From Chytriomyces cf. hyalinus JEL632 (taxonomy: Eukaryota; Chytridiomycota; Chytridiomycetes; Chytridiales; Chytriomycetaceae), in the NCBI GenBank assembly GCA_025435555.1, contig JAIWWG010000085.1, forward strand, positions 62,001 through 126,000: DNA of 64,000 nucleotides. Reading direction: 5' to 3'. Position numbers and translations under genes: made by a program. Under the pieces are notes generated by a model. That model was not told where the DNA came from. It searched no databases and saw only the letters and a list, made by a program, of their open reading frames with translations. This document shows positions 44,443 to 52,673 of this stretch, in pieces (within the stretch, counting starts at the first letter, position 1; every line of letters begins with the position of its first letter).

Positions 44443-46168
44443 ATGGCGACCTCATCATCAGAAGAACAAGCTGCCAAGGACATTGGTGCGTCTCTCTCCT
44501 CAACCCTCGTTGCCTCGTTGCCTCGATCCTCGATCCTCAATCATCCTGCCTGCACTCTCCCGGTGACCCATGCGCTATCTAACCGGGTCTCCTTCAGTCT
44601 CAGTACCAATCGATGCCGTCGCTACCGGTAGCACCGCCACCGCTATTGCCACTCACGACCACTCCAAAAAGAAGGTGGTCACCATCATGAGCAGTCTGTA
44701 CTCCATCTGGCGAAGAATCATTGTCTTCAACATCCTCGCAATCATTTTTGTGCCTCTCGGCATCCTCTCGTTTGTTCTGAAATGGGGTGCGTTTTCTTGG
44801 CCATGGGTTCAAATGTCCTTTACCAGCAACTGAACTTTTCATATGGGTTATCAGGTGACATTCCTACGTTCGTGTTGAACGTGTGTGCCATTATTCCGCT
44901 AGCAAAGTTGTTGGATTACGCAACCGACCAGCTTTCGATGCGAGTGGGAGAGACCATTGGAGGGCTGCTGAATGCGTAAGAGTCTCCCTTGCCACTGTGG
45001 AGACTGGCATCGCTAACCTTTGTCATCTGTTGACCAGCACGTTCGGTAATGCCGTTGAGCTGATTGTGTCGATCCTGGCGCTGCGCAAGGGCGAGCTGCG
45101 AGTGGTGCAGGCGTCGCTGATCGGCTCTGTTCTCTCGAACCTTCTTCTCGTGCTTGGCTTCTGTTTCCTGTGCGGCGGATTGTTGTAAGTCATAAATTGG
45201 GTGTCTGCAAAAATTGTGTGGCCTAAAAAAATCGCACTTTCAAATCACTCTCGACCCACTCAGTCCATCAGACAAGTCCGCAACGCTTCTCGACCGTTTC
45301 CAGCTTCTCGATCCCGACCAGGCGAACCTGAACATTGGTCTCCTGTCGGTCGTCTTTCTCGGATTCATCATCCCTGCTGCCTTCCACATTGCCTCAGAGC
45401 AGACCATTGGCTTCAACCCTGAAGAAATTGCAAACAAGACCCTTTCAATCAGTCGCGGCACTGCTATCGTCCTTCTCGTCACCTACATTGCCTTCCTCGT
45501 TTTCCAACTGTATTCCCACCGCGGTGAAACCAGGGTTGTGAGTGAACCCGTGCCTGACGTTGAGCGTGTCGATGCTCACGCAACAGTAATCGAAGAAGAG
45601 GAGGAGGAAGAAGAAGCCGAAACTCTGGCCATCATTGCCGTCGGTGCTTTAGTCTGTGTTACAGTCGTGATTGGTTTCTGCGCTGAATTTTTGGTTGACT
45701 CATTGGATGGTTTGGCCAAACAAGCGTCCATCTCAAAAACGTTTATCGGAATCATCATTCTGCCTATTGTTGGAAATGCTGCCGAGCACGTGACTGCAGT
45801 CAGTGCTGCAATGCGTAACAAGATGAACTTGGTCATCACTGTGGCTGTTGGCTCAAGTATCCAAATTTGTAAGTGTGATAAACCTCAACCCGTTTAAATC
45901 ATTGAAATTAAATTCCCGTTTTATTAACCTTGTATTATTTACAGCTCTCTTGGTCGCGCCAGTGCTTGTTCTCATTGGATGGATGATTGGGCAGAACCTC
46001 AGCTTGGACTTTGAAATCTTTGAATCCGTTGTTCTATTTGTCACCATCTTTGTCACGTCCACTCTGATTTCGGATGGCAGGACAAACTGGCTCGAAGGAT
46101 GGATGCTGCTTGCATCCTACGTTATTCTCGCAATCGCGTTTTTCTACACGAACGATGTTGCTGAGTAA
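44443..46168 (+). CDS. VCX1: Vacuolar-type Ca2+/H+ exchanger (CAX/Vcx1)
   Basis: About six exons. The first is short and ends AAKDI; the spliced product continues with [19 protein letters not shown] and [16 protein letters not shown]. Further joins give [19 protein letters not shown] and [19 protein letters not shown]. The latter holds the first cation-binding c-1 motif GNAVE. A loop exon has [18 protein letters not shown]. After an acidic run of eight glutamates (about 45595-45618) comes [16 protein letters not shown], the c-2 motif. The last exon completes helices ending [12 protein letters not shown] proteins load Ca2+ or Mn2+ into the vacuole using the proton gradient. The acidic loop between the two halves matches the family. 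The start at 44443 lacks the long autoinhibitory tail of plant CAX1. Confidence 0.93.
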
Positions 46169-46376: not shown

Positions 46377-48471
46377 CTACAGGTACACCATCCCCGCCCC
46401 TCCAATTTGACCCACAGTCAACCACGCCTGCGCTTGAGGATCGTACGCCGGTACAACAGGCATATAAACCATTGTGTTGACCAACGGCACAAGCACAAGA
46501 CCCGCCGTGAAATAGAACAACAGACCAAACGCAATCGAAAAGGGCAACGCCGGTAAAGCCTTTTGCCAAATCACGAGCAAGAAAATTGTGAAATTGAGAC
46601 CAGTGAGGACTCCGATCGTTACGGCCATGGTTGGGACCCAATCTGATAACGCTGTGAAAAGTGAACAAAAAGAAAGGGTCAGGACAAACAAATTTTTTCG
46701 GTACGGGGGAAACAGTAAAAGTAGAAGAAACAAACCTGCTCGCGATGCCAATACACTGTAGAACACAAAGTCACCCAACCCAAGCTTCATACCCCCATCT
46801 TGCTCTTCTTCTTCATCTTCGTCCTGCTCATGCGGCCTCCGGGATTCCACGGCACTTTGATTAGTCGACTGCGGTTGTGGTTGCGGCTCGCGTTGTTGCT
46901 GTTGTTGTTGCAGTGACGCGCGAATTCTTCTTTGCTCCTCAAAATCCACCATAGGCACTTCTTCCACTTTTGCTCCATTGTCGAGACCTTCTCTCACACG
47001 ACTGCCCGTGCTGCTACCATTTTCAGAGACATCCACGCCAGCTGTTCCGGTATCAAGACGCTTCTCTTTTCGTTCAGCAGGTGCAGCCATCATTGTTGTT
47101 GGACCTGCGCTGTACAAGAGTGCAGGGATTTCGCGGTTTTGAGTTTTTGAAGTTTCAATCAGGAGACGAAGTGGACCGTAAGGACATAAGACGGCAATCA
47201 AATCTAAGAAACATAGTGTCAAAAAGACTTTTGAAAAGATGTCAATCCACAAAAACGCACCCCAAACGGCAAGAAGAGCCAAAAGAATCCAAGTTGTAAT
47301 TGTGGGAATCGAGGAATTTGTCAACATAAACGCCATCATACTGCTGATCACGACGAGGTATGATTGCTGTAGCCAAAGCGGCCCTTTGCTCCAGAAAACT
47401 GACATGATTCCAACTGCAGCAAAGTTCCAAATGAAGAAGGCAAATGTGATGTAGTCCAGTGGAAGCAAATTGAGCCATAAAAATGTGACGCTAATAAAGT
47501 ATCCGAAGACACCGAGAACACCGAGAATAATGAGCCCAAAGACGCCGTACAGGATCTTGATATGAAACGGAAAGAAAAAGTTCAGTTTACATAATTCCAG
47601 TCACACATTGTTGATGATCCTTGGTGAGGCAATTTACCTTCATACAGTTGAAGTAGAACAAGATAAAGATGACAACAGTTGCTCCGACGACACTTCCCAG
47701 GGTTTTAAGAGCCATAAGCAAGTCCGCCTGCTGCTGGGCGCTGTCCTCACGCATTGGATTGCTGACAGCCCCGTTTTGACCAACCAAACTGCTCACACCA
47801 CCGTAATCGAGCGCATAAATGTCGGGAGGAGGAGTGCTCGCATGTCCACTGTAGTATTGCGCAGGGGGATTGAGAAGCTTGACCCACATGATGGCAAAGA
47901 AAACGCATGCAACGACGGGTTTGAGAATAAGGTAGATTTGGGAAAGATAGTATTTGAGATCGTCGATGGTATCGTTGTCTAATTGCGTTGCGGAAGTTGC
48001 AAAAGACTTTGGGAGAGCGAAAGCGAATCTCGAATTGGAAGAGTTGTTATGCGGCTGATGAGTAGGGTTGGCAGATTGAGGCCGCAATTGTGCTGTTGAG
48101 TTAACTGTTGACAAGACGGGTGACGGAGCGTTCGCATGTGCAATTGAGACGGATGATGATGCTGAATGCGCTACTGAGAAGCCGGAGAGCCTTCCGTGGT
48201 TGTTGGCAATGTTGTTGTTTCGGGATTGGAGAGGTTGCTGTTGAGATGCGCCCTGCTGTGCGTGAGATTCGGTCCCAATTCTGGTACTGTCGTTGGATGA
48301 CGCAGCCTGTCTCTCGGCGGCATGTGCTTGTCTATGCATGGCCCAATCGCTTTTCTGACAGGCAACGGAGCAGTACATGGCGGGTGACAGCGAGGAAGCC
48401 GTGCACAACGAGCAGATGAACAGCGCAGTCTTTGAGCAGTGGCTGCACTGCTGGGGCGGAGACGAGGTCAT
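46377..48471 (-). CDS. PSEN: Presenilin-type intramembrane aspartyl protease with N-terminal MYND zinc finger
   Basis: Exon 1 (48471 to about 47635) encodes a complete MYND finger (C9, C12, C20, C23, C34, C38, H46, H50), then a long Ser/Gln/Asn-rich linker, then DDLKYYLSQIYLILKPVVA and a second hydrophobic helix ending YFNCMK. Splicing to about 47564 gives ILYGVFGLIILGVLG, then LPLDYITFAFFIWNFAAVG and GPLWLQQSYLVVISSMMAF. A stop-free 57 bp intron (47204-47260) is removed to give LLAVWDLIAVLCPYGPLR, so the first catalytic Asp sits in WD rather than the usual YD. A Gln-rich acidic loop precedes LGLGDFVFYS, the second catalytic Asp (GxGD, about 46770-46785). A second stop-free intron follows SRA. 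PALPFS is the PAL motif. Presenilin is the gamma-secretase catalytic subunit; the MYND finger is not part of known animal or plant presenilins. Confidence 0.9.
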
Positions 48472-48566
48472 GGATGGGTGAGCCTGGGGAAGTGTCTATC
48501 GTCTAAATGTGATTGAAGCTGATCAACTTCGAATTAACTTTTGTTTTTACTGGGGTGAACACGTCT
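48472..48566. promoter_or_regulatory. Probable bidirectional promoter, presenilin / PPR gene
   Basis: Only 95 bp separate the divergent start codons. No specific element was recognised; the role is inferred from spacing. Confidence 0.4.
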
Positions 48567-51500
48567 ATGCAGTGGGAACAGCTGCACAAGAGAGCTAACG
48601 CGCTATCGTCCGCTGCACACTGGTCCAAGCTGCATTCGCTCGGACGTGGGCATGTGATGCGGTGAGTTTGGCCCTGTCCTCTGTCGCCGTACGTGCTGTG
48701 CTGACTCTTCTCCCGCAGTCTCTCTTGGCCCCATGCCATGTATCTGCGTCCAAACACAGCGATACATAAATACGCTCTGTCGACACACATTCTATGGTTG
48801 AGAGCTGCCGCGGCCGTCGATCCATCTGTTCGCATTCCTTTTATCAACTTGGCGAAACAAGTGGCATCTCCCTTCTCACCCAATATCCTGCCGCATCCCT
48901 CAACCGAATCCAGCAATCAGTCTATTCCTGCTTCTGCCACCGATTCGTGGTCCCACATTTTCGAAGGAGTCACAAATAAATCCGCCGTCTCGGATTTGGA
49001 CCACATATCCAGTCTCGGCATTCATCCCGAACTCACGAAAGCTGAGCACAAAGCAATTACTACCACCATTGTCTCTCTTCTTTCAGGCAATCCATTTGGC
49101 GCAGAGGTTGACCAGGTGCGGGTCTATTCGGCGCTGTATCTCGCTGGGATCCTGCTTCTGAAATCAGATCCAACGGGTCCGAAACCACAAATCGACTCAA
49201 AAACCATGACGCGCCTTCTACACCATCTCTTTTCTCTATTTAATGCAAATGCGGTTTATCTCGACCGTAATTCCGACGCATATCGCTACTACATGTCACT
49301 CCTCGATTGGTCAATGGTCCATCCAAACGTGATTGATGGCCTCTTGCGCAACACAACACCCGCAACTGCAATTCTGGCCATGTCAATACTGCACCACTTT
49401 ATTGACACATACTCTAAAGTGGAACCCACAGCTGCCCAACCAAAGTTCTCTCTCTCAACCTCAGCCATCAACGCAATATTTTCAAATTTGCCTACCGAAC
49501 CAAACTCACTGCTTCAGCCTAACGAAAATGGCGAGTCTGATCAGGCAGTATTAGATTCCAAACACAACATTTACCCGCAAAACCTGAGCCATATGGCGTC
49601 CATACTCTTCATTCGCCTCGTTACGCGTAAAACTATCCCCGTCCATGTGGCTTTAAACCGCGGTCCGGACGAGGAATCGACATTCCATTTGTTTGTGAAC
49701 TGCCTCGGTTTTGGCCGCGACGGAACCGGTGCGGAAAGAAATGAAACTGAAGCACGAGTGCAATCACACGCAGACTTGCTTAGAGACTGTGAAGAGATGC
49801 AGCGAAAACGAAAAGGTGTTCTATTTTGGGAAGCGCATGTTGCGCTTGCGAATCGATGGCTTGAAGTTTGCGACAGGCGGTGGAACCGATTATTGGATCA
49901 GCCGTTGGAAAAAAATCAAGTGCGTGACCTTGATTGGATGATTGGGAAGGCAGTGTGGCATGTGAATCGGGCGCGGTTCATTTTGCTCAAGTACAGTGCC
50001 AACGAAAAGCGCAATGTTTTGACTGCTAACGGCGATGCTGTGGAAACTAGCGGTGTTCCTAAAAGAAAGCTCCAAGATTTAGAGGCAGATGACTCGATGT
50101 ATGTGTTGTCTGACTTTGAAATGGTACGCGCGGGACTCGTTGATGGCAAGTTACTGGCATCTGCAGCCAACCAGCTCCTTCTTGCGCATCTGAAAATTCT
50201 TCATGCCAAAATGCGACTCGAGCCGAAACGCGCGCACTTCGGAGACACACCTCGACAAGTGGCGCGAGCCCGGAAAGGGGCAGTACAAGCTATTTCAAGA
50301 GTGGTTCTGGGAGAATTCGGGTCGGATACGTTTGTTTCTGGAGAAGTTTGGGAGTACCTCGGCAGCGCGTTTGGTGCTGGCAAGTTGCATGTTGTGCGTT
50401 ATATCCTGGAAGAACAAAGCAGAAACAATGTTCATGTGAATGTGACGAAGACTGAGGAAGCGAGAACGGGATGGCGGATCCTAGCAAATCAAACTTTGGG
50501 CAATTGGAGTCAAGAAGTTGAGCGAATGGAACAAGAAAATGGCGGCAATTCCGGCGGCTCCATCCCCGTGGCTGAACTTTATCGATCCATTTCTGAACGG
50601 TCATTGCGGGATTCTGTGACTGTAACCATTCTTGTCCGAGACGCGCTTGAGCGGCTAAAAGACGCGGAGGTTGCTCGCCAGATTTACACTGAAGCGCATC
50701 AAGATGGCTTGTTTCGTAAAGGCGATATGGATTTGTATCCATCCCTGCACCTAATGCTGAAACTGTACGCGGATGAAGGAAATGAGGACGGAAGTAAATG
50801 GGTCTTGGGTGAATTTGCGAGGAATGATATTCCCGAAAACCACATCACAATCACGTTGTTGGTGACGGCGCTAGCGAGGCGTGGAAAATGGTCCCAGGCC
50901 ACTTCATATTATAATGAATATCGCAACAACGGTGGTACGGTGGACACAAGTTTCTTTCAAGCCATTGCCAAAATTGTGTCTGAACAAGGCCAGCCATGGG
51001 CTGTCGACGAATGGATTGGTCGTATGAAAGAGTGTGGGCTTCCTGTTACGTCGGTAATGCGATATTATGCAATACAGGCTCTAGTGGAAAATCATCGGGG
51101 GCAATATCCAGATTTGAAATATCTTGTCGCCGCTGAGAATCAACTGGATTTAATGGAGGAGGCCTTTGCTCGAAATCCTCGTGGAATGGACGCTGTTGCA
51201 ACGCCATGTTCGTCAGCCACATATTATTCTTTTTTTTTTTTTTGACTTGCCATTCCTAATTCCAATTTTTTGCACTTCCTTGATGGTAATGGCAAATGCT
51301 TGGATATTTGCGCTACAGACAGTTTGATCATGAAGGGATACGCCAAAGTGCAGAATGCACTCAAAGTGAACGAACTCATGAATCGGTTCACCTCAAAATA
51401 CCGAGAAACCCACACTGGACTTCCAGGTCTAACACTTACATTCATTTCAAGTCTCGTTCACTGCAATCAGTGGTCCGAGGCAAAAGAATACTTGCTTCAA

Positions 51501-52673
51501 TCCAGATGCGACTGGGGAATGGATGGGCAAGGATACTTCCAACGGTCGGTCGGCACCCTTATTCAGAACGCATCCATGTCAGACCTCCCGTACCCGTCGA
51601 GCCCAGAACGCGAAAAACTTGTAGCGAGTGCGGACGTTTCGTTGTTGCGCGCGTTCGGTCTGCAACCGTTCATGCACACTGAACTGGACACTGCCGTTCT
51701 CATTGGACGAATCCAAAGAACCCCGCATCGGCTGCAAGCCGTGTCAACGTATGCTATGGATTACTGGAAAGAACGGCAAGCGGCATCCACTCGATTCCCA
51801 TGTTTCCTCTTGCAAGAAATGACACGGATTGTGATGGCAACTCGCACAGCAGTGTCTGCAGAAGAATGGTTGAACGAGTTTGAGAAAATGGAACCTTTGA
51901 CCAGCGAAAATCTATTTCTGCAAAGCGCGTACTTGTCCATCTGTGCAAGGGACGAAAAGGCAGATGTTTTGAAAGCGTTGCAACGGGTATTAGATCGCGT
52001 TCTTAAAACACCAAGCGGGATTCCATCTCAGGAGTGGTGTGATTCAATTGCTATAATGTATACCACTGTCGCTGGTCGGTGTGCACGCGACGGAAATGCA
52101 GAGGCAGTGGAACGCCTTCTAACCGAGGTCAAGGAACTCACATGTAATAATGCATATGTCTTGAGCCATCAACACTTCGAATCGATACTTTTGAATGCGT
52201 ATGGTCGGTCTCGACAGATTGATCGAGCGGACGCTGTTTGGAGGGACTGTGTTGAAAAGAGTCCGACTGGTGTAGCGGGCCTGGCCGAGAGCTTTGTTTG
52301 CTTGCGGTTGGACAGTTTTGGCTTTCGAGGGGATCAAAGCGGGTTGGAGGATGCATGGAACATGTTGCTGCGACTTGCAGATGAGAATGCTCAGGGAGGC
52401 ACGACGCGTTTCTTTCTCACAGAAAACCACTGCAACTCGTACATTGAGGCTTTAATTCGACTTGGAAAATGCGAGGCGGCTGTAAATGTTGCCAAATGCG
52501 TGGGGCAAGATCCAAATCAGAGTGATTCTGTGGAAGTTAGTGGTCGAAATTATTTATCCCACATCTCGCCCACTCCAAAAATGTTGCGCACAATTCTAAG
52601 CGGTCTTGACGGCGCTGGGCAGGAGCAGATGAGGGTAGATTTTAATGCTTGGCGACTTGCAAATTGGCAATGA
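48567..52673 (+). CDS. Large PPR-like helical-repeat protein, probably mitochondrial
   Basis: Three exons: 48567-48661, 48719-51207 and 51319-52673, giving about 1,310 residues. The start at 48567 gives MQWEQLHKRANALSSAAHW, a basic Ser/Ala-rich leader compatible with mitochondrial import. The product is helical throughout. Its second half has PPR-like 35-residue units, for example DSVTVTILVRDALERLKD, ITITLLVTALARRGKWSQA and, across the second intron, TPYSLIMKGYAKVQNALKV. The second intron (51208-51318) is 111 bp with a 16-T run and an atypical GTTCGT donor. PPR proteins bind organellar RNA and act in its processing or translation. No close named homologue was recognised, so a TPR-like or other helical solenoid remains possible. 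Confidence 0.7.

Follow-up and report, generated by a model that had tools for sequence, protein, structure and literature searches.

The window, by which we mean the whole stretch of 64,000 nucleotides analysed here (C227:62001-126000 of an assembly of 37.8 Mb and 242 contigs, which was searched as well), carries on its minus strand a presenilin gene whose first exon also encodes a predicted zinc finger (Table 1). Gamma-secretase, an enzyme familiar from Alzheimer's disease, makes its cuts through the presenilin subunit. A convergent gene of the sodium/calcium-exchanger family (45196-46168, 72.3 bits on a 233-codon frame) lies about 200 bp away from the stop codon of presenilin. On the other side, two long plus-strand frames, 48705-51242 and 51246-52670, share one register with a single stop between them; the second scores 33.2 bits as PPR and the first, weakly, 15.4 (cut-off 25). 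An intron is likely here, because a T-rich run closes the first frame.

Table 1. Features of the presenilin gene and of the gap upstream of it, in window positions
Feature	Position	Strand	Description
Presenilin gene	48471-46377	minus	4 exons (GT-AG splicing), 623 aa; TM numbers from the PSEN1 alignment
Exon 1	47638..48471	minus	start codon, zinc finger, linker, TM1, loop 1, TM2; residues 1-278, one open frame, donor AAG^GTAAAT
Predicted MYND/C6H2-type zinc finger	48322..48447	minus	residues 9-50; ligands C9 C12 C20 C23 C34 C38 H46 H50
Linker	47956..48321	minus	residues 51-172, 122 residues, low complexity, Met-free; S/A/N/Q-rich by eye
Intron 1	47556..47637	minus	82 bp, GTAAAT...CAAG; contains a stop codon; removal connects TM2 with the following helix
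Exon 2	47261..47555	minus	TM3 to first half of TM6
Intron 2	47204..47260	minus	57 bp, in frame, stop-free; GTGCGT...TTTCTTAG
Exon 3	46736..47203	minus	TM6 catalytic Asp377, PYGPLRLLIE, large loop, GLGD (Asp521), from the alignment with human PSEN1
Intron 3	46652..46735	minus	84 bp, GTTTGT...TTTTCACAG; after splicing, PSEN1 match regained on both sides
Exon 4	46377..46651	minus	TM8, PALP, TM9, C-terminal extension, stop codon
Intergenic space	48472..48566		95 bp, presenilin ATG to ATG of divergent PPR-like gene (modelled)

An earlier, sequence-only reading of this locus had proposed a first exon followed by downstream exons but made no mention of the 57-bp intron 47260-47204, with which the model now has four exons. 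This intron splits the codon of Asp377. When it is spliced out, ...AVWGAFLWIDIFSKVFLTLCFLDLIAV... becomes ...AVWDLIAVLCP..., by which the catalytic WD motif of TM6 is regained; the Pfam presenilin score rises from 311.3 to 352.5 bits, and PSEN1, which leads the PDB matches, gains as well (155.1 to 193.8 bits).

At the higher score the spliced protein covers positions 1-407 of the 408 of profile PF01080 (E 3.6e-105, this and the other Pfam E values being those of one protein against the library; cut-off 34.3) and is thus a full-length family match. Exon 1 alone reaches 24.5 bits (E 1.4e-5, residues 173-278, profile 1-88), which is under the 34.3 cut-off for the exon alone. Alignment with PSEN1 places the catalytic motifs at W376-D377 in TM6 and G518-L-G-D521 in TM7, and PALP at residues 566-569; GxGD and PALP, which had been assigned to downstream exons, are indeed found there, in exons 3 and 4 respectively. 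The chytrid protein shares with PSEN1 and PSEN2 (MEROPS A22A) the whole presenilin domain, the Y/WD and GLGD aspartates, PALP and the large TM6-TM7 loop. It differs from both by its N-terminal zinc finger and 122-residue linker, and from PSEN1 by a C-terminal extension past the end of the alignment.

The genome search found one presenilin; a weak fifth match (C161, 21.6 bits) is below the cut-off and has two internal stops. Matches over the Pfam cut-offs were obtained for the other three subunits: three for APH-1, one of them reading through a TGA, one for PEN-2 (profile 51-93 of 93) and two for nicastrin, all of these being partial, exon-level matches on C171, C188 and C219. None of the 14 prokaryote controls matched any of the four profiles. 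The ciliary protein IFT57 was matched at 127.5 bits (3/14 prokaryote controls also matched, all below the cut-off), and matches to the chitin-synthase family were numerous, with a profile that is non-specific, 4 of the 14 controls passing the cut-off; both agree with a zoosporic fungus.

Merenyi et al. 2023 is said to be a study of gamma-secretase in fungi, and we know of no role assigned to the enzyme there. Fungi had been thought to lack gamma-secretase until recently, and the enzyme of early-diverging fungi has already been published (PMC10406608); an older survey gave it as absent from four fungi (PMC2770060). A presenilin with a MYND or similar finger was not described in any of the open-licence papers listed, as judged by title and opening of the abstract, and nothing there contradicts the sequence-only reading, which knew of no animal, plant or slime-mould presenilin with a MYND finger. 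Relatives were also sought by pattern scans. The two scans of viral contigs, with 3 and 29 matches, yielded none, and of the 66 pattern matches in genome contigs four loci qualified, three of which are archaeal presenilin homologues (L047-L049). These share the GLGDF motif at 30-32% identity, and no finger was seen by eye in their three open frames. The fourth, L046 (5693-5908), is a eukaryotic-looking presenilin fragment with 49% identity on a contig that carries the label of a MAG from a Porticoccaceae bacterium; the neighbouring genes look eukaryotic too, and contamination is the probable explanation. It says nothing about the presenilin N-terminus, because the fragment begins at TM6.

The candidate finger itself reads C9-x2-C12-x7-C20-x2-C23, Y33-C34-x3-C38-Q39 and W43-x2-H46-x3-H50, with all eight zinc ligands intact, as are the aromatic residue before C34 and the tryptophan of W-x2-H. 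It passes the cut-off of Pfam zf-MYND (PF01753, 22.7 bits) with 28.4 bits in the full protein (E 1.7e-6), 30.0 in exon 1 alone (residues 9-49) and 37.3 in residues 1-66, and fails that of zf-C6H2 (PF15801, 30 bits) with 20.5 bits in the full protein and 25.6 in residues 1-66. The MYND ligand scheme is described as C4-C2HC (PMC3555993), from which the finger departs by a histidine, H50, in the last place; the C6H2 ligand set is present, and ten residues separate ligands 4 and 5. The sequence-only reading had called this a complete MYND consensus. The motif letters are as it gave them, but the full consensus is not there, and the phrase is too strong, since the last histidine in place of cysteine and the ten-residue loop both recall the C6H2 finger of MetAP1.

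Other fingers in the same genome provide a scale for this comparison. There are at least 18 zf-MYND matches, the presenilin finger and at least 17 others. Among these 17, ten fit the full-ligand pattern (last ligand Cys or His), and all ten, which amount to eight distinct fingers (L025-L027 are identical), end in Cys and have five residues between ligands 4 and 5. By eye, three of the seven that do not fit (L014, L023, L028) also have Cys last, two (L015, L022) have neither Cys nor His there, and two (L024, L029) are so divergent that the last ligand could not be placed. L022 (C206:152277-152387), a MYND-like finger in a 256-codon frame with one terminal hydrophobic segment, is possibly, by eye, a tail-anchored membrane protein. 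Three MetAP1-like copies or fragments (L031, L032 and L033, on C190, C13 and C33) have an apparent intron within the finger, and with the splice proposed for it the MetAP1 finger of this genome reads C-x2-C-x7-C-x2-C-x9-C-x2-C-x7-H-x3-H and scores 42.1 bits as C6H2 and 18.6 as MYND; eight of the genome's MYND fingers score 30.9-49.8 bits as MYND and at most 19.3 as C6H2.

Measured against this scale the presenilin finger is, as far as its residues tell, an intermediate between MYND and C6H2 that lies nearer the MYND side. It shares with the MYND fingers of DEAF1, CBFA2T1, BS69/ZMYND11 and SMYD proteins the spacing of the first four cysteines, a YC-x3-C-Q-K-x-D-W core and a Pfam score over the cut-off, and differs from them by its terminal His and by a loop of 10 residues against 5 in the ten loci compared. 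With the MetAP1 finger it has in common the C6H2 ligands, W-A-x-H-x3-H and the 10-residue loop, which is that of human MetAP1, whereas it reaches 25.6 of 30 bits and is followed by no aminopeptidase. PDB matches came from both families: a COBW-protein/MetAP1 fusion (E 0.001), MetAP1 (0.0036), SMYD2 (0.0039) and DEAF1 (0.0054). Pairwise scores were highest for two MYND fingers, L017 (87) and L020 (79), then for human MetAP1 (76, from a fragment lacking the first Cys) and for the genome's own MetAP1 (53). A six-frame genome search with zf-C6H2, in which MetAP1's own finger is split by its intron, placed the presenilin finger at the top of six matches (25.2 bits), none of which reached the cut-off. 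Both pure classes were set aside, a plain MetAP1 finger because Pfam favours MYND and a plain MYND finger because of the His ligand and the long loop. For residues 1-60 AlphaFold returned a poor model made of helices only (pLDDT 64.5), which lends no support from structure.

The sequence-only reading had placed the finger and the first two presenilin transmembrane helices in one exon-1 frame, and this holds, with Pfam zf-MYND at residues 9-49 and Presenilin at residues 173-278 of 278 codons open from the start codon through TM2. Before TM1 the in-frame methionines are residues 1, 32 and 45 only, the next being M195, inside TM1, and an in-frame stop (TAG, 48498-48496) lies nine codons upstream of the ATG. 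Because of this stop, the Met-free stretch 46-194 and the 95-bp gap, translation that leaves out the finger would have to begin at a non-AUG codon, at M195 or in an upstream exon overlapping the neighbouring gene. The linker (residues 56-165) has a codon-usage score of 0.205, where training frames average 0.20 (sd 0.095), wrong frames of the training windows average -0.13 (sd 0.14) and the linker's own other frames range from -0.38 to 0.03; this score is typical of coding sequence, yet no proof, since the highest wrong-frame score is 0.211. The synonymous-codon z of the linker is 2.9. Codon usage of the finger is uninformative (synonymous z 0.6, p 0.30; 0.006 in frame against at most 0.091 in the other frames). 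A genome search with the N-terminal exon brought up no further copy of it, the other two matches lying at E of about 0.05. Furthermore, the chance that one of 18 MYND matches, itself a lower bound, falls in exon 1 on the same strand and in the same frame is about 6.6e-5, a rough figure for 37.8 Mb that ignores the post-hoc choice. A reading as separate genes is unlikely, there being no start codon between the finger and TM1. On these grounds the fusion, as a property of the gene model, is very probably real.

The opposite case would be an error in this model, with a transcript that starts downstream of the finger or loses it by splicing, the finger lying on a separate short transcript. To our knowledge presenilins elsewhere have no such finger, which would fit an error, as would the 23 donor/acceptor pairs, with four weak donors, that a relaxed splice scan finds in exon 1; one of these donors, at 48359, is located inside the finger and takes part in nine pairs, of which three preserve the frame. 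Against it stand the absence of in-frame methionines after residue 45 and before M195, the linker codon usage at the training mean, the 95 bp left for any upstream exon before the divergent gene, and a strict splice scan that gives no candidate intron in exon 1, by a rule uncalibrated on real introns and blind to donors such as the GTTTGT of intron 3. We regard such an error as very unlikely. A neutral or recent accretion, in which a MYND-type exon was captured and the finger does little or something species-specific, is easier to entertain and still rather doubtful: the finger is known from a single genome, the linker is long and of low complexity, and MYND matches are common in this genome, but decay would probably have removed some of the eight ligands, the aromatic residue or the tryptophan, which are all intact in one frame.

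A different function is also conceivable, namely that the finger acts as in MetAP1 and connects the protein with factors bound to the ribosome, or with ZNG1, a zinc chaperone, and not with PxLxP adaptors. The C6H2 ligands would suit this, as would the loop, equal to that of human MetAP1 and close to that of the genome's own MetAP1, the top PDB match, which is the MetAP1 finger of the COBW fusion, and the leading though sub-threshold place in the zf-C6H2 search. CobW-family matches are present in the genome, and MetAP1 is described as ribosome-associated and served by ZNG1 (PMC10642216). The Pfam comparison points the other way, 37.3 bits for zf-MYND against 25.6, the reverse of the preference of the genome's own MetAP1 finger, and the nearest fingers in pairwise comparison are L017 and L020, ahead of human MetAP1; nor was a PxLVP (ZNG1-type) motif seen in the six CobW loci, all gene parts, that the nine matches represent. 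We therefore consider a MetAP1-like role unlikely.

The explanation that we favour, and hold to be reasonably probable from the sequence evidence, is a single-copy, chytrid-type presenilin with an N-terminal MYND/C6H2 finger, the catalytic subunit of gamma-secretase with a cytosolic docking module. In this view the protein would supply the active site of a normal gamma-secretase. The N-terminal tail of presenilin is cytosolic, so that the finger, as the sequence-only reading had supposed, should face the cytosol, where it would sit on a flexible tail and remain on the N-terminal fragment after endoproteolysis. PXLXP peptides are ligands of known MYND fingers, and by analogy the finger might dock a proline-containing, PxLxP-like peptide, although PxLxP binding is not to be assumed, given the last His and the long loop. 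The peptide could be carried by a cytosolic adaptor or by the tails of substrates, and cleavage would thereby be localised or coupled to the partner.

More tentatively, a clade of zoosporic fungi may possess a catalytic subunit with a MYND/MetAP1-type finger that couples intramembrane proteolysis directly with a docking partner or with the zinc/ribosome machinery. If the finger is indeed a built-in adaptor, it could be used as bait for its partner, which would open a way to the role of gamma-secretase outside animals and plants, and the fusion would represent one way of directing an intramembrane protease.
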